Source: Lachnospiraceae bacterium (GTDB lineage: Bacteria; Bacillota; Clostridia; Lachnospirales; Lachnospiraceae). From it: a stretch of DNA of 43,346 bases. The notes under the pieces are model-generated. The model saw only the letters and a program-made list of their open reading frames with translations, did not search any database and was not told the DNA's origin. The stretch lies in NCBI GenBank assembly GCA_015057435.1, contig SVEJ01000025.1, forward strand, positions 1-43,346, given 5' to 3'. The stretch's first letter is position 1; each line of letters begins with the position of its first letter. Below, piece by piece: positions 21,761-29,933 of the stretch. Both the position numbers and the translations under genes were made by a program.

Positions 21761-22441
21761 ATGGGATTTTTTGATAAATTCAAGAAGAAAAAGAAAGAAG
21801 AAATGCCGATGTATGCATATTCCGAGAAGGAGATGCAGGAGTTTGAATGTTTTATACAGGAGAATTTTGGAGAGTTTAAGGATGTATTACATGAGATATT
21901 TTCTCCGGATGTGCATCTGGATATTGTGATGGTACCGCCTACCGATGATGACCCGTATTATAAGATGATTACGATGGGGATGGGGGCTTATGCCATGCAT
22001 GTTCCGGAAGAATTGAAGGAATATAATCTGGAGCATGCTGAGATGGTATTCTATCTTCCGAAGAATTGGAGTGTAAAATCTTCGGATGAGAAGGATTACT
22101 GGCCGATTCGTTATATGAAGATACTTGGCAGATTGCCGCTTGATATGGATACGTGGTTGGGTTATGGGCATACAATACATGGCAATGAGGATATGAGTCC
22201 GTTTGCTGAGAATACAGAATTGAACAGTTTTGTTTTGTTGCCTGCCAATAATCTGATGTATGAAGCACTTGATTTGACACTTAGTTCAGGCAAGAAGATT
22301 AATTTCTATCAGATGGTACCGTTGTATCAGGAGGAGTTAGATTACAAGTTGGAGAACGGATTAGAATCTTTGCTTTCCTTGTTTGATGAAGAAGATCGTC
22401 TTGCGGTATTGGATATTAAGCGAAGAAACTATTGCAAGTAA
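21761..22441 (+). CDS. Suppressor-of-fused (SUFU) domain protein
   Basis: The 226-residue protein has a basic N-terminus (FDKFKKKKKEE) and then a domain matching the bacterial SUFU family. The recognisable parts are HLDIVMVPPTDDDPYYKMIT, then GMGAYAMHVPEE, EHAEMVFYLPKNW and later LDMDTWLGYGHTIH. Bacterial SUFU proteins are frequent in toxin-immunity repertoires, where they act as immunity or scaffold proteins. No toxin partner is visible here, so the role is open. It ends 12 bases before csoR. Confidence 0.75.
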   Translation: MGFFDKFKKKKKEEMPMYAYSEKEMQEFECFIQENFGEFKDVLHEIFSPDVHLDIVMVPPTDDDPYYKMITMGMGAYAMHVPEELKEYNLEHAEMVFYLPKNWSVKSSDEKDYWPIRYMKILGRLPLDMDTWLGYGHTIHGNEDMSPFAENTELNSFVLLPANNLMYEALDLTLSSGKKINFYQMVPLYQEELDYKLENGLESLLSLFDEEDRLAVLDIKRRNYCK

Positions 22442-22913: not shown

Positions 22914-25900
22914 GTGAAAAATGTAAAAACCAACAAACCCGGAAGGAGAATACTAAGCATTGTATTGACCGTAGTTCTAATGGTAGGACTAATGCCGGGC
23001 AATATGCTGACAGTATCGGCAGAAGAAAGCAACTCTACTGAGCTAAGTGTGACAGCTTTTGCTACACCGGAGCAGTTGATGAGTAGTTTTGATTTGGACG
23101 GAACGGATGATACTGTGGGAAAGGTATATTTTGGAACAAGCGGAGAAAACCCTCTCAAGTGGTATATCGCAGGAAAAGACAGTGCACAGGAAACGGATAA
23201 TATCGTCCTGTTTTCTGCACAGAGTTTGGGAAATAGTGAATTTGGCTCTAACAGTACCTATGCCGGCAGTACACTTGCGGATACCATAAAGGGATATGAG
23301 TATGCGGGGAATAGTTTGACTTCCAAATTTACTGCTGCTGAAGATAGCCTGATGCTATCTACCAGACTTGCAAACAAACCGCCAAACGGTGGTTCTGCAA
23401 AACTGTATGCTTTAAATCAAAGGGATATGTTTACTAAATATATTACAGCAGGGGAAAAAGACGATATTAAAATAGATATAAGTTACTGGGGAAATAATTT
23501 CTGGCTGCGAGCATCGTCTGATAACGACTATGCGTACGTTGCGTATAGGGGCACTTTCGTGTTCCACGACGCAGTCAACAATGTCTACCCGGTTGTGCCC
23601 GCATTTGATTTAAATCTGTCATCTGTTCTCTTTGCCTCTACTGCGCCGGCAGCAACATCCGGTGCAAACCTGACGGATACCATGACCTTCCGTGTGGATG
23701 GAGCAGAAACAGATAATGAAAAAATAACAAGTAAGGCAACTTATACCACTGACAGCGTAATGGTGGATGCGTCAGATAGTGAAACCGTATACCTCTATGT
23801 AGCGGGCAATGACGGAACTACTGACTGGGTATATTCTCAGGAAGTAAGTACAGATAGTACCATAGCTATAGAGACGATTATGTCCGGTGCGAAGGATAGC
23901 AGTGGAATGGCTGTCACTCCGGCAAGTGTTGATTTAAGCCGGTGCAGGATTTGGATTGAAAAGAAGGTTGCAGAAGATAATCTGGTGTATGCAGTTATGG
24001 CAAGAGAAGCAATTACTTCGGTGGAAGTAATGGATATTACTGTTCCGGTAGCAGGAACTGCGCTTGATGTGGCTGCTACATGCAATACCACAGGCGTAAG
24101 CACCACAACACCGAATGTCAGCTATACAAAGAATGGCGAGTCTGTTTCAGGTAATGCGGGAGCTTATGCAAGTTATACAGCTATAGTGGAATTAGAAGCT
24201 GCTGATGGTTATGTATTCACTGACGAAACCACTGCTGCCGTTAATGGTAAGGAAGCAAGCGTTTCTTACGATGCTGATACAGGCAAGATTGCCGTAAGCT
24301 ATACATTTGATAAGACCGCTAAACTTCCTCTTGGGAATACATATTTTGCAACTGTTGATGAGCTAATGGGAAGTTTTGATTTGGACGGAACGGATGATAC
24401 CGTAGGAAAGGTATATTTTGGTACCAATACGACCGGAAATAGCACAGTACCACAGACATGGTACATTGCAGGTTCAGATGCAGATAACAGTATCGTATTG
24501 TTGTGTGACCCGGAACTTCCGCTGGCAGAGACTGTGTTTGAAGATGATTGCGGTATGAACAAGACTTATGATAATAGTTGGAACTGTACCTATGAAACAG
24601 CCCCAAGTTGGGTCTATCCAAACCACTATGGAGCAAGTGATTTAAGGGGAGTGTTACAGGGGTATACCGGTAATGATAATACCGAGAAATTTTCAGCGGC
24701 TGAAAAAGAGCTGATGCAGACTACCAGGATTTATACGGATGATCAGAAACAAAAGGATGATGGTAGTGCGGAGTATACCTATTATACCGAGGATAAGCTG
24801 TATGTGGCGTATGGAGACGATAACGATAACCAATATATCACGGTAGGAGCAAACAGCGCAGACAGCTTAAATGGCGGATTAAAAGTAAGTCTGACATCAG
24901 CACCTTACACTAACGGAGGTCTTTTTTGGCTGCGGGCGACGTACGCTGGCTATAGCTCCCGTGCGCTCGTTGCGTTTCCGGAACTTTACGTGGACTTCAG
25001 GATTGTCGACGTGGACCTCTCGGTTGTGCCCGCTTTTCGGTTAAATCTGTCATCTGTCCTCTTTGCATCTGCTGCGCCGGCAGCAATATCTGGTACAAGC
25101 CTGACGGATACCATGACCTTCCGTTTAGCTGGAGATGATAAGATAACAGGCAACGTATATTACAGCACAGACAGTGTGGTGGTAGATGTGGCAGATGAAG
25201 AACCTGTATATCTGTATGTACAGGGCAATGATGGAACTACTGACTGGGTATATTCCAAGGAGATAAGTGCAGATGATACGATAACTGCAAGTGACATTAA
25301 GAACGGTGCGAAAGACAGGGATGCTGCCGCTGCCGGCCTAACAAACATTGATTTAAGCCGGTGCAGGATTTGGATTGAAAAGAAGGTTGCAGAAGATAAT
25401 CTGGTGTATGCAGTTATGGCAAAAGAAGCAATTACTTCGGTGGAAGTAATGGATATTACTGCACCGGTAGCAGGAACCGCGCTTGATGTGGCTGCTACAT
25501 GCAATACCACAGGCGTAAGCACCACAACACCGACTGTCAGCTATACAAAGAAAGGCGGGTCTGTTTCCGGTAAGGCGAGATATCTGGCAGATTATACAGC
25601 TACCGTAGAGTTGGAAGCTGTTGTGGGTTATGCATTTACTAACGAAACCACCGCTACCATTAATGGTAAGGAAGCAAGCGTTTTTTACGATGCTGATACA
25701 GGCAAGCTTACCGTAAGCTATACCTTTGATAAGACTGCTAAGCTTCCTCTTGGGAATGCATATTATGTAACGAAAGACGAGCTGATGAGTAGCTTTGATT
25801 TGGACGGAATGGATGATACTGTAGGAAAGGTATACTTCGGAACCAATGGAAGCAATAAGCAGACCTGGTACATCGCAGGTTCAGATGCAGCTGACAGTAT

Positions 25901-28900
25901 CGTACTGTTGTGTGACCCGTCACTTCCGATGGCAACCGGTACTATGTTTGAGAATGATAAGGAAAATAACAAAACATATAGTGCAGATTGGAACTGTACC
26001 TATGAAACAGCCCCAAATGAGGTCTATCCAAACCACTACGGAGCAAGTGATTTAAGGGGAGTGTTACAGGAGTATACCAGTAATGATAATACCGAGAAAT
26101 TTTCAGCGGCTGAAAAAGAGCTGATGCAGTCAACCAAGGTTTATACAGATGATGATAAGCGAAAAGATGAGAGTAAAACGGACTATACTTATTATACAGA
26201 GGATGTGCTGTATCCGGCATACGGAGACTATTACGATGACCAATATATCACGGTAGGAGCAAACAGCGCAGAAAGCTTAAATGGCGGACTAAAAGTAAGC
26301 CTGCAATCAGCACCTTACAATAGCGGAGATAAATTCTGGCTGCGGGCGCCGAACTATGACTTTAGAGACGGTGCGCTCGCTGCGTCTCCGGACATTTGCG
26401 TGCTCATCTACAATGTCAACCGTGAACACTCGGTTGTGCCCGCTTTTAATTTAAATCTGTCATCTGTCCTCTTTGCATCTGCTGCACCGGCAGTAACATC
26501 TGGTGTAAGTCTGACGGATACCATGACCTTCCGTGTGGACGGTACTAAGAAGCTTGCATCCAAAGCTGCTTATACCACAGGCGGTGTTACAGTAAATTAT
26601 GATGAAGATGATGGAAATGTATTCCTCTATGTGCAGGACGCAGATAGTGTGTATTCTGTGGAAATCACAAAGGATACTACAGTGCTATTGTCTGATATGA
26701 CAGGAATTAGTAGTCTGACTGATGAAAACACGAAGATTTGGCTGGAAAAGTCAGAGGATAATGTGACTTATGCTGTGATTACAGAGGATATGCCGAATTT
26801 TGCAGAAGCCGGCATACAGAGTCATACACTTACTTATAACAGCCTACCACAGACTCCTGCATTTATCGTAAAACTAGGCAATATCATACTTACCGCTGAT
26901 GATTATGATGTAACAGTTACAGAACAGAAAGATGTAGGAGACTATACAGCAACAATCACAGGTAAAGGTATTTACGAGGGTACTATTGAAAATGTAGCCT
27001 GGTCTATCAGAAAGGCAACACCTACGCTCGCATGGAATAACCAGACGATTGCAAGTACGGGTAAGGAAGCAGTAATTACTGAACCGACACTTACATTTGC
27101 CGGAACCGATAAACCGGAAGTGGAGCTGGCATACTCTTATAAAGCACAGGGTGATGAAGAATATACAGTCGGACTTCCGAGTGCATGCGGAACATATGAT
27201 TTGAAGGTAAATGTGCCGGAGTTAACGAATTATGCGGCAGTAGAAAAGATCATTACACTGACCATTACCTGTACAGATGCAGATAACAATGGAATTTGTG
27301 ACCATTGTGGTTCCTATGATGAACCGGAACATGAAGATGAATATTATCAGATTGCAAATGCCGGTAATTTGATATGGTTTGTCCAGCAGGTAAATGAAGG
27401 ACAGACTGCTATCAACGCAAAGCTTACAGCGGATATTAATCTGAAAGGCATTGACTGGACGACTATGGAAAACTTTGCAGGTACATTTGATGGAAATGGA
27501 TATACGATTTCCGGATTGAACGGACATAAGTCTTATACACCGAATACACATGGATTTATAAGAACCCTTGCTAACGGTGCTGTTGTAAAGAATCTTATTT
27601 TTACGGAAGCAGACATATTCAATCACGAAGGTAATGGCGCAATTTCTGCGGTAATCGTTTATACAAACAACGGTACTGTTGAGAATTGTGTGGTTAAAAA
27701 CTCTTTAATTCAGCATGGTAATTATGATGCTCTGGGTGTTGTAGTTGGTGTAAATGGCGGCACGATTCGTAACTGTGCTTCAATATCCAACACCATGAAG
27801 AGAAGACATGAAGGTGTAAATAATAAAGCGGCGTGTGGTTTTGTTTGGTCAAATGGAACGAATGCTACAATCGAAAACTGTATGGTTTATGATTGTACGT
27901 ATGTGGAGGCTTTGGGAAATTATGCATTCACCGGTATAAACAAAGGAACTATAAATAACTGTTATTATTATGAATCATCGGAAACACTGGAAGCTGCAGC
28001 AGGAACAGCAAAGACAGCTGACCAGTTTGCAAGCGGTGAGGTTGCATATCTCTTAAATGATAGCAAGACGGATGGCACGCAGAGCTGGTATCAGACTCTT
28101 GGTAATACAGAGGATGAAACGGCAGATAAGTATCCGGTTTTATCGAATACACATAAAACGGTTTATTCATATGGTGGATATTATGCAAATGCATTTACTA
28201 CAGATGAAGCAGGTAACATTTCAACAGAACGTGATGATAAAATAGGCACAGTTACACTAGATGATACAAATGCAACCTATGACGGAACAGAAAAAGCACC
28301 GGTCGTTACCGTGACAATAGGAACTGGTGTAAATAAAGTGACATTTGCAAAAGATACGCATTATACAGTGATCTATCCGGCAGATATGACAAATGCAGGA
28401 GAGAAGACAATTACTATAGCAATGAAAGAGAAAAGCGGACTGGAAGGAACAGTGAAGCTGAAATTTATGATTAAAAAGAAAGCTCCAACACTTGCAGATT
28501 TCGTATTTAGTGCCCCGGAGGACCTTACTTATAGTGCTGTTGCTAAGTCAGCAACCGTAAAGGCGAAAGATGGCATCAAAGGAATGGGTGCGATTACCGT
28601 TTCTTATACGGATAGTAACGGCGAAACAGTATCACCGGTTAAGGTAAATGAGGAAGAGAAACCATACGTTGCTGTAATTAATGTAGCAGAAGGTGATAAC
28701 TACGAAGCATTTGAATCAACCTATATAGACACAAAAGCTGCCGGATGGACGTTCCATATTACGAAAAAGGCTGCCAAAGATGTAGCGACACCGGTAATCG
28801 AGAATTCTATTATATATGGTACAAAGTTATCTGCTGTTACACTTCCGGACGGATGGGAATGGCAGTTACCGGATACGGTTCCGGCAATAGAGAATAATGG

Positions 28901-29933
28901 TTTCGAGGCATCCTATGCTATTTTGGATGATGTAAATTATGATTATTCTGCAATTGATGGATATGATGCAGAGAAACATGCGATTGTAAGAACAGTTGCC
29001 GTTACAGTAACAAAAGTATGTAAGCATGACGGCAAAACAGAAGTGAAGGATGCAAAGAAAGCAACCTGTGCAGTAGATGGATATACCGGAGACACGTACT
29101 GTAAGGATTGTGGAGTAAAGATTGCAACAGGAACAAAGATTGATAAATCAACTGCTCATACATGGGATAACGGCGTTGTAACCAAAGAAGCAACTGCTAC
29201 AGAAAAGGGTGAAAAGACTTATACATGTAGTGTGTGTAAGACCACTAAGAAAGAGGAAATTCCGGTAATCATAGACAAATCGGAAGACACCACAGCTCCG
29301 ATGGACTATGATTCTGCAGAAGATACAGACAAGATTATTACCTCTGCCAACACAGATAAAGGGGATGTAAAAGGTTCCGGTTTTGCGAAATTGCAGTTAA
29401 AAGCCATAGGAAAGAATAAAGCTGTAAATCTGACATGGAAAAAGGTGAAGGATGCAGACGGTTATATCGTATACGGTGCACAATGCAACAAGAAGCTGGA
29501 GAAATTAGAAACCCTTACCGTAGCTTCCAAAGTAAAATATACCCATAAGAAGCTGAAAAAAGCAAAATACTATAAGTACATGGTGGTTGCTTACAAGACC
29601 ATAGACGGCAAAGATTATACGATTGCAACCTCCAAATCCGTACATACTGTAACTAATGGCGGCAAATATGCAAACCCGACGAAAGTTACTGTAAAATCGG
29701 CAAAGCTTACAGTAAAGAAAGGTTCCAAAAAAACCATAAAAGCAAGTTTGAAACTGCCAAAGAATAAAAAGCTAAAAACCCATATCGCAAAGTTCCGTTA
29801 CGAAAGTGACAACACCAAGGTTGCAACCGTAACGAAAAAAGGCGTAGTCAAAGGCATGAAAAAAGGAACCGCAAACATTTATGTATATGCCCAGAATGGT
29901 GTGTATAAGAAAGTAAAAGTAAACGTGAAATAA
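22914..29933 (+). CDS. Giant secreted protein with three DUF6273-like lectin-fold units, GLUG-like, FN3 and Big_2 domains; candidate DGR target
   Basis: This 2339-residue protein starts with a GTG eight bases after AGGAGG (22900-22905). Residues 1-36 are a signal peptide (ILSIVLTVVLMVGLMPG, VSAEE). Three related units follow, starting near residues 49, 477 and 951. Each begins SFDLDGxDDTVGKVYFGT, continues with a WYIAG strand, and ends FWLRA-variable-VVPAFxLNLSSVLF, like DUF6273 domains of the C-type-lectin/FGE fold. Each is followed by a beta-rich linker domain. An Ig/MBG-like part (about 1300-1440), GLUG-like beta-helix repeats (about 1477-1690) and cysteine-paired modules (2033-2117) follow. 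The end is an FN3-like domain (2159-2250) and a bacterial Ig-like Big_2 domain (2254-2339). There is no LPxTG. The variable segments (about 201-232, 676-709, 1146-1179) look like DGR variable repeats. It sits between csoR and copZ, unlike a copper gene, so lateral insertion is likely. Confidence 0.88.
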   Translation: MKNVKTNKPGRRILSIVLTVVLMVGLMPGNMLTVSAEESNSTELSVTAFATPEQLMSSFDLDGTDDTVGKVYFGTSGENPLKWYIAGKDSAQETDNIVLFSAQSLGNSEFGSNSTYAGSTLADTIKGYEYAGNSLTSKFTAAEDSLMLSTRLANKPPNGGSAKLYALNQRDMFTKYITAGEKDDIKIDISYWGNNFWLRASSDNDYAYVAYRGTFVFHDAVNNVYPVVPAFDLNLSSVLFASTAPAATSGANLTDTMTFRVDGAETDNEKITSKATYTTDSVMVDASDSETVYLYVAGNDGTTDWVYSQEVSTDSTIAIETIMSGAKDSSGMAVTPASVDLSRCRIWIEKKVAEDNLVYAVMAREAITSVEVMDITVPVAGTALDVAATCNTTGVSTTTPNVSYTKNGESVSGNAGAYASYTAIVELEAADGYVFTDETTAAVNGKEASVSYDADTGKIAVSYTFDKTAKLPLGNTYFATVDELMGSFDLDGTDDTVGKVYFGTNTTGNSTVPQTWYIAGSDADNSIVLLCDPELPLAETVFEDDCGMNKTYDNSWNCTYETAPSWVYPNHYGASDLRGVLQGYTGNDNTEKFSAAEKELMQTTRIYTDDQKQKDDGSAEYTYYTEDKLYVAYGDDNDNQYITVGANSADSLNGGLKVSLTSAPYTNGGLFWLRATYAGYSSRALVAFPELYVDFRIVDVDLSVVPAFRLNLSSVLFASAAPAAISGTSLTDTMTFRLAGDDKITGNVYYSTDSVVVDVADEEPVYLYVQGNDGTTDWVYSKEISADDTITASDIKNGAKDRDAAAAGLTNIDLSRCRIWIEKKVAEDNLVYAVMAKEAITSVEVMDITAPVAGTALDVAATCNTTGVSTTTPTVSYTKKGGSVSGKARYLADYTATVELEAVVGYAFTNETTATINGKEASVFYDADTGKLTVSYTFDKTAKLPLGNAYYVTKDELMSSFDLDGMDDTVGKVYFGTNGSNKQTWYIAGSDAADSIVLLCDPSLPMATGTMFENDKENNKTYSADWNCTYETAPNEVYPNHYGASDLRGVLQEYTSNDNTEKFSAAEKELMQSTKVYTDDDKRKDESKTDYTYYTEDVLYPAYGDYYDDQYITVGANSAESLNGGLKVSLQSAPYNSGDKFWLRAPNYDFRDGALAASPDICVLIYNVNREHSVVPAFNLNLSSVLFASAAPAVTSGVSLTDTMTFRVDGTKKLASKAAYTTGGVTVNYDEDDGNVFLYVQDADSVYSVEITKDTTVLLSDMTGISSLTDENTKIWLEKSEDNVTYAVITEDMPNFAEAGIQSHTLTYNSLPQTPAFIVKLGNIILTADDYDVTVTEQKDVGDYTATITGKGIYEGTIENVAWSIRKATPTLAWNNQTIASTGKEAVITEPTLTFAGTDKPEVELAYSYKAQGDEEYTVGLPSACGTYDLKVNVPELTNYAAVEKIITLTITCTDADNNGICDHCGSYDEPEHEDEYYQIANAGNLIWFVQQVNEGQTAINAKLTADINLKGIDWTTMENFAGTFDGNGYTISGLNGHKSYTPNTHGFIRTLANGAVVKNLIFTEADIFNHEGNGAISAVIVYTNNGTVENCVVKNSLIQHGNYDALGVVVGVNGGTIRNCASISNTMKRRHEGVNNKAACGFVWSNGTNATIENCMVYDCTYVEALGNYAFTGINKGTINNCYYYESSETLEAAAGTAKTADQFASGEVAYLLNDSKTDGTQSWYQTLGNTEDETADKYPVLSNTHKTVYSYGGYYANAFTTDEAGNISTERDDKIGTVTLDDTNATYDGTEKAPVVTVTIGTGVNKVTFAKDTHYTVIYPADMTNAGEKTITIAMKEKSGLEGTVKLKFMIKKKAPTLADFVFSAPEDLTYSAVAKSATVKAKDGIKGMGAITVSYTDSNGETVSPVKVNEEEKPYVAVINVAEGDNYEAFESTYIDTKAAGWTFHITKKAAKDVATPVIENSIIYGTKLSAVTLPDGWEWQLPDTVPAIENNGFEASYAILDDVNYDYSAIDGYDAEKHAIVRTVAVTVTKVCKHDGKTEVKDAKKATCAVDGYTGDTYCKDCGVKIATGTKIDKSTAHTWDNGVVTKEATATEKGEKTYTCSVCKTTKKEEIPVIIDKSEDTTAPMDYDSAEDTDKIITSANTDKGDVKGSGFAKLQLKAIGKNKAVNLTWKKVKDADGYIVYGAQCNKKLEKLETLTVASKVKYTHKKLKKAKYYKYMVVAYKTIDGKDYTIATSKSVHTVTNGGKYANPTKVTVKSAKLTVKKGSKKTIKASLKLPKNKKLKTHIAKFRYESDNTKVATVTKKGVVKGMKKGTANIYVYAQNGVYKKVKVNVK
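23514..23609 (+). other. Variable repeat 1 (VR1), candidate DGR target segment
   Basis: The segment lies between conserved FWLRA and VVPAF, ending at the variable codon after VVPAF. It is 96 bases long, 6 bases shorter than VR2 and VR3, with the loss before the invariant gcg at 23532. The 20 aligned codons from 23532 keep gcg, gcg, gtg and gtc at core positions 1, 4, 10 and 15 like the other two copies, while AAY/TAY-type positions differ. Confidence 0.7.
24939..25040 (+). other. Variable repeat 2 (VR2), candidate DGR target segment
   Basis: 102 bases between cgg-gcg and the codon after VVPAF (cgg). Compared with VR3 it differs at almost every codon that could derive from AAY, GAY or TAY. 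The flanks, from gttgtgcccgct onward, are identical to VR3 except for the variable codon. Confidence 0.75.
26349..26450 (+). other. Variable repeat 3 (VR3), candidate DGR target segment
   Basis: 102 bases, the same length and frame as VR2. The encoded segments of VR2 and VR3 share only the residues from A-free codons and a few others (A, A, P, V, V, S), although the DNA on both sides is nearly identical. That contrast is what marks the segment as a mutagenesis window. Confidence 0.75.

Follow-up and report, generated by a model that had tools for sequence, protein, structure and literature searches.

The window analysed here, the whole 43,346-nucleotide stretch of contig SVEJ01000025.1 from a Lachnospiraceae bacterium (assembly GCA_015057435.1), carries on its forward strand a gene for a protein of 2339 amino acids (aa) in which three DUF6273-type repeats each contain a variable segment. 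Our analysis makes it very likely that these segments originated as variable regions (VRs) of a diversity-generating retroelement (DGR), and we regard them as probably former DGR targets, now orphaned, frozen and slowly drifting. The gene is laid out as follows.

22914-29933, + strand: open reading frame (ORF) of the target gene, 2339-aa protein with three DUF6273-type repeats and a C-terminal Ig-like Big_2 domain
23049-23714, + strand: DUF6273-type domain copy 1, from internal repeat families and alignment of the domain copies
23499-23591, + strand: variable region 1 (VR1), last 20 codons at 23532-23591, two codons shorter than the others
23592-23602, + strand: GTTGTGCCCGC after VR1, candidate initiation-of-mutagenic-homing (IMH) site, identical in the three copies
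24336-25139, + strand: DUF6273-type domain copy 2, from repeats and alignment, holding the Pfam DUF6273 match (residues 567-710)
24924-25022, + strand: variable region 2 (VR2), last 20 codons at 24963-25022
25023-25033, + strand: GTTGTGCCCGC after VR2, candidate IMH site, identical in the three copies
25755-26549, + strand: DUF6273-type domain copy 3, from repeats and alignment (DUF6273 E 0.0015, 18.9 bits, under the curated cut-off)
26334-26432, + strand: variable region 3 (VR3), last 20 codons at 26373-26432
26433-26443, + strand: GTTGTGCCCGC after VR3, candidate IMH site, identical in the three copies
29679-29915, + strand: Big_2 bacterial Ig-like domain (Pfam, residues 2256-2334)

The N-terminus of the protein is signal-peptide-like as judged by eye. 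Pfam matches to the protein are Big_2 (3.8e-9) and DUF6273 (5.8e-5; 23.5 bits, exactly the curated cut-off). The DUF6273 profile matches 8 of 10 members of the domain alignment at E ≤ 0.1, and no solved structure related to the domain was found by sequence at E ≤ 1. Going by the family, the three repeats would represent a putative binding domain on a probably secreted protein. The anchor GTTGTGCCC stands at 23592, 25023 and 26433, in frame with the ORF in all three copies, and the shortening of VR1 lies upstream of the 20-codon block. GTTGTGCCCGC occurs three times in the window at ≤1 mismatch, against 0.22 occurrences expected by shuffling. It is regarded as a candidate IMH site because of its place at the 3' end and because template and VR are identical there in the control loci L155, L156 and L166.

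Results

A preliminary description, made from the letters of the window alone, had proposed that the three segments carry a signature of adenine mutagenesis. Our recount of the 20 codons before the anchor reproduces its 30 variable columns (11, 14 and 5 at first, second and third codon positions) and its 15 of 20 codons with identical third bases across the three copies; the number of columns with A in at least one copy is 21 of 30 instead of 22. Divergence around the segments is ordinary, with third codon positions varying most: the flank 3' of the segment shows 3, 5 and 7 variable columns out of 31, 31 and 31 by codon position, and the N-terminal part of the repeat 6, 5 and 12 out of 29, 29 and 28. 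Among the 16 columns of the segments that vary in amino acid, 11 have the same third base throughout. Resampling of synonymous codons puts the mean expectation at 2.6 with the codon usage of the window ORFs, at 2.3 with that of this gene and at 4.3 with the codons of the segments themselves, and the observed agreement was reached in 0 of 5000 resamplings under each of the three usages. Since this test assumes independent codons, a codon-pair control was added, in which pairs with both position 1 and position 2 changed were scored for the third base and the six codons after the segment were excluded. In the window copies 16 of 23 such pairs in the VRs agree in the third base, versus 35 of 88 in the remaining domain (p 0.018, nominal, as are all p-values from these pairs, which share sequences and are not independent).

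The same pattern is found beyond the window. DNA matches occur in 4 of 26 genomes of the genus and in 16 of 397 genomes of the family (the own genome is counted in both). Six related loci (L025-L030) were identified among genome contigs, all from metagenome-assembled genomes; their records are labelled Lachnospiraceae (four), Oscillospiraceae (one) and Candidatus Colinaster equi (one), and for four of them goat, water deer or roe deer gut is given as source. A set of nine VRs was assembled from the window (three), L021, L025, L026 (two), L028 and L029. L021 and L027 were judged to come from the same genome (G003 = G028; identical hits and identical segments) and one was used, while L030, which is cut by a contig end, and the more distant L162, L090, L089 (two), L098 and L073 were excluded. 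The third base is kept in 187 of 262 pairs in the VRs of all nine copies versus 331 of 995 in the rest of the domain, and in 73 of 106 versus 125 of 421 for the six non-window copies. From the nine VRs, 22 columns were inferred to stand opposite a template adenine. Eighteen of them are positions 1 and 2 of codons with a conserved third base, which is a column-specific C or T common to 7-9 of the 9 copies; this is the form expected from a template of AAC and AAT codons.

An all-adenine template (111 nucleotides) was accordingly written from the nine VRs and searched in 38 genomes at E ≤ 0.01. It returned 13 matches in 8 genomes, namely the nine VR places, three weak matches (≤35 bases, E ≥ 0.002) and a single further place, G332:C146:37528-37610 (L174), with 80% identity, E 1.5e-15 and 77.9 bits; the best of 200 codon-shuffled versions reached 32.8 bits at this locus. 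Genome G332 is outside the nine-VR set, but its variable segment (L162) had already been seen before the template was guessed. The matching stretch lies outside any longer reading frame, 3' of an Avd remnant and 5' of a remnant of a reverse transcriptase (RT). DGR RTs carry a GxxxSQ motif, and the RT remnant has GNQSSQ; both remnants are fragmentary and stand beside stops. As read from its sequence, G332:C146 is a fossil DGR of another genus. Its template aligns with the VR family of the window, and its end reads GTTCAGCCCGC where the window VRs end in GTTGTGCCCGC. The AAY-rich template predicted in the preliminary description thus has a counterpart of the expected form, next to Avd and RT remnants.

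The adenines of the G332 template predict which window columns vary: 17 of 21 adenine columns are variable among the window copies versus 12 of 48 other columns, in an alignment with one codon gap placed by hand. Diversity at adenine versus other columns differs at a nominal p of 8e-7 (2e-6 for the six non-window copies), and the mean diversity in the nine copies by template base is 0.62 for A, 0.22 for C, 0.20 for G and 0.17 for T. This prediction identifies the window segments as DGR variable regions. Further members of the family stand beside RT sequences. In G332:C218 (L162) a C-terminal RT fragment is followed by a gene homologous to that of the window, with 41% identity to copy 3, and in G048 (L161) an RT running off the contig end directly precedes a related target. 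Together with the template match, these RT-adjacent targets mark the family as a DGR target family. Judged by its sequence pattern, the origin of the segments is adenine-templated.

Four pairs of template repeat (TR) and VR served as controls. Changes affect 12 of 22 template adenines and 0 of 91 other bases in G001, 19 of 38 and 1 of 58 in G327, 24 of 33 and 0 of 63 in G416, and 15 of 27 and 0 of 69 in G313; pooled, 1 of 281 non-adenine bases is changed. For G327, G416 and G313 the bases up to and including the homing site (CGCCCCGC or CGGCCCGC) were compared; past it, template and target are unrelated. The G001 element (L051, contig 15), from the same genus as the window, is a phage-like DGR with Avd, another template, RT and VR, in which 12 of 12 differences fall on template adenines. 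The G327 element (L156 5058-6729, contig 10) has a template of AAY codons, and its RT match comes in two pieces with the middle part missed.

The preliminary description had suggested a search of the source genome for a DGR-type RT, Avd and a template. None of the three was found in this draft, which comprises 2.73 Mb in 74 contigs and is 92.8% complete. The RVT_1 profile detects a single RT in it, of UG26 type, and the L057 RT as query (E ≤ 0.001) matches only this place. This RT (L001 1093-2493, - strand; C9:40458-41081 of the own genome) belongs to the DRT class (520.9 bits), and similar RTs occur by motif in the relatives. With its UG26-type match and its motif, GTPISP rather than GxxxSQ, it was rejected as the mutator. 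The Avd profile (phrog_3206) matches neither the draft genome nor those of the six relatives. No further VR copy exists in the draft at E ≤ 10, where the three copies are joined by nine matches of ≤24 bases (E ≥ 0.7), and the guessed template finds nothing there besides the three VRs, short chance matches aside. It is likewise missing from the six relatives, with one 21-base match (E 0.0098) in G029. The RTs of the relatives are group II-, UG26- or retron-like by the motif of their frames, with sub-threshold fragments in G003:C128 and G027:C63 unclassed. The window itself holds no credible match to RT or Avd, the best being a 44-aa stretch at E 0.01-0.09.

Within the genus, DGR-type RTs were recognised by motif in 2 of 26 genomes (G001 and G007), some short frames showing no motif. 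In G007 (L089 120-1175, contig 36) an in-frame Avd-RT fusion without roughly the first hundred RT residues lies directly 5' of a DUF6273 gene with two VR-like segments. These segments are 87% identical, and of the 19 columns at which they differ, 14 have an A in one copy. The fusion looks like a deletion product, though its frame is open. Its RT has relatives in 96 phage records, Butyrivibrio phages accounting for four, with at best 46-47% identity over 62% of the query.

Relatives of the domain were not found in plasmids, nor in IMG/VR with patterns that reach close relatives only. The RT query found two distant loci (26% identity) in IMG/VR and 76 plasmid records below 60% identity. Phage record MT836599.1 has 40% identity to the domain and was rejected for want of an FWLR-type VR, a credible RT match and a template. 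An IMH-like 17-mer in four IMG/VR contigs (L184-L187) was attributed to chance, as the match has no VR-like frame and none of the four contigs matches the two RT queries.

Two further sets of DUF6273 loci were compared. The single-contig genome G421 has a 10.1-kb stretch with a DUF6273-type gene and two VR-like segments, present twice (L090, L091) at 99.98% identity; these copies are uninformative on diversification because their VR segments are identical through recent duplication of the whole stretch. Among the other DUF6273 loci of the own genome, L014 gave no frame, and in the frames of L015-L018 and fragment L020 a repeat pattern of AAY type was not seen by eye.

Discussion

The preliminary description took the segments for DGR targets. 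That they are DGR variable regions is borne out by the sequence tests; a working DGR in this genome is not supported. Under recent homing, the non-adenine columns should match a common template. In window copies 1 to 3 the columns that depart from the leave-one-out majority number 6, 4 and 2 among the 47 inferred to be non-adenine (0.13, 0.09 and 0.04) and 6, 8 and 8 among the 90 of the flanks (0.07-0.09); in the six other copies 1-13 of 47 non-adenine columns deviate versus 3-22 of 90 in the flanks. Variation at non-adenine columns, named in the preliminary description as a sign against a DGR, is therefore present at a low level, and since it is similar to that of the flanks, VRs and surroundings appear to be of about the same age. 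Such drift fits VRs that are no longer rewritten better than ongoing mutagenesis, as far as sequence comparison can tell. Given a DGR origin, we think it quite likely that the segments were orphaned in this lineage rather than being served by an unseen element.

Several points weigh against this reading. The numbers for the clock are small: copies 2 and 3 differ at 4 of 47 non-adenine columns (hand count) versus 9 of 93 flank columns. The adenine columns (22 of 69) were inferred from the same copies, which is partly circular, and 10 of the 30 variable window columns fall outside the inferred adenine set. The leave-one-out majority mixes species, so that species-specific changes of a template would score as deviations. 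A plain count of variable and invariant columns in the nine copies separates the G332-template classes weakly (19 of 21 adenine columns versus 29 of 48 others, Fisher p 0.02); it is the amount of diversity that sets them clearly apart. The L021 and L026 copies have the 5' part in common and differ in much of the 3' part, which implies that homing continued after those lineages split, at least there. In a draft of 74 contigs the absence of the machinery is no proof. Moreover, small Avd remnants may escape the search, as the phrog_3206 profile matched 4 of 21 genomes (G001, G007, G327 and G416) and missed the known remnant in G332.

The strongest competitor is an active DGR out of sight, on a phage, a plasmid or a missing contig or in other strains only, which would still be rewriting the three VRs. 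DGR-type RTs do exist in the same genus, in the phage-like element of G001 with its Avd, template and VR and in the fusion of G007, and the 96 phage records carry RTs related to the latter. The L021 and L026 copies differ mainly towards the 3' end, as after recent homing. Remote VRs served in trans are on record, as is a locus, DGR 7 of Thiohalocapsa PB-PSB1, whose VRs lack a match in the assembly because its intact parts are confined to other strains (PMC10907252, PMC3521204). We nevertheless consider such an element unlikely. Its machinery was not found in the own draft genome or the six relatives, the domain has no relatives in plasmids or, within the close range of the patterns used, in IMG/VR, the one phage record resembling the domain lacks an FWLR-type VR, a credible RT and a template, and the non-adenine columns are not clean.

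A reading that requires no retroelement is ordinary duplication and point mutation of a lectin-like domain followed by positive selection, and both the dominance of codon positions 1 and 2 in the variation and the repeated domain in a probably secreted protein would agree with it. Selection acts on amino acids, however, and does not keep the third base constant where positions 1 and 2 change (16/23 versus 35/88); a template next to Avd and RT remnants is not predicted by it either, and we judge this reading very improbable. Gene conversion or cassette shuffling from silent copies, for which three tandem homologous copies with near-identical ends might speak, is slightly less credible still, as the draft genome holds no further copies of the segment and the variation is adenine-linked.

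For the favoured reading of former targets now orphaned, the steps of retrohoming would be those of known DGRs. An error-prone RT with Avd would have copied a template RNA rich in AAC and AAT codons, placing random bases opposite template adenines, and in each DUF6273-type domain the cDNA would have replaced the 3' portion as far as GTTGTGCCCGC. Domain residues would thereby have been altered with the frame kept and stops avoided. Later the lineage would have lost the machinery (or this assembly lacks it). What persists in the VRs would be three variants of a putative binding domain on a secreted protein, frozen and drifting slowly.

Published examples exist of DUF6273 targets, of multi-VR genes and of degenerate DGR loci, and the window is a further member of this company. 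The accessible text of the respective papers places DGR variable regions at the C-terminus of DUF6273 in Faecalibacterium prophages (PMC11792537) and, in phages nd4 and nd12, on the surface of a DUF6273-like domain resembling a C-type lectin (PMC10743442). These systems share the Pfam domain but reside, as described there, in phage genomes with RT and template, whereas the window has a probably secreted protein with three VRs, no machinery was found, and its setting is chromosomal. The neighbouring genes are chromosomal-looking and encode a metal-sensitive repressor, a SUFU-domain protein, a heavy-metal ATPase and UvrA. The SUFU-domain protein (Suppressor of fused, 4.1e-43) is encoded at 21761-22441 of the window, beside the repressor.

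Several VRs per polypeptide are also described for Marichromatium purpuratum 984, with three VRs in one ORF, one per tandem FGE-sulfatase domain (a possible artefact or pseudogene per its authors; PMC3521204), and for DGR 4 of PB-PSB1, whose target gene has three VRs (PMC10907252); both accounts, as far as their accessible text goes, differ from the window in reporting a DGR RT in the genome. Degenerate loci and remote targets with RT or template missing or mutated are reported in PMC10907252, where the VRs of DGR 7 have no perfect match in the assembly, and for Pseudogulbenkiania in PMC3521204. As reported there, intact DGRs persist at other places of those genomes or strains, and for most of these VRs a template agrees at the non-adenine sites, while for the window no template was found and the non-adenine sites have drifted. 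The accessible text of PMC8144416 and PMC4372165 holds nothing on orphaned VRs; in the latter, "orphan" denotes target genes without homologues. What is unusual here is that an entire close group carries targets and the element was not found.

Conclusions

On a tentative wider reading, which we hold to be possible although somewhat less than even, DGRs repeatedly enter this gut-bacterial family and disappear again after diversifying multi-domain surface proteins; the fixed repertoire of a lineage would then consist of arrays of binding domains that were once hypermutated and are now frozen. In its favour are the seven close-group genomes (the own genome and six relatives) that carry VR genes but show no machinery, the fossil DGR in G332, the RT fragments in G332 and G159, the Avd-RT fusion of G007 without the N-terminal part of the RT, and the single-contig genome G421, which has a related gene and no match to the L057 RT or Avd. 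Our results also highlight that DGR targets can be recognised without an RT being present, and that a lost template can be guessed well enough to find a fossil in another genus; a survey with the RT as its starting point would overlook genes of this sort. Should orphan VRs prove common in gut bacteria, retroelements that are now gone would have made part of the surface-protein diversity of these organisms.

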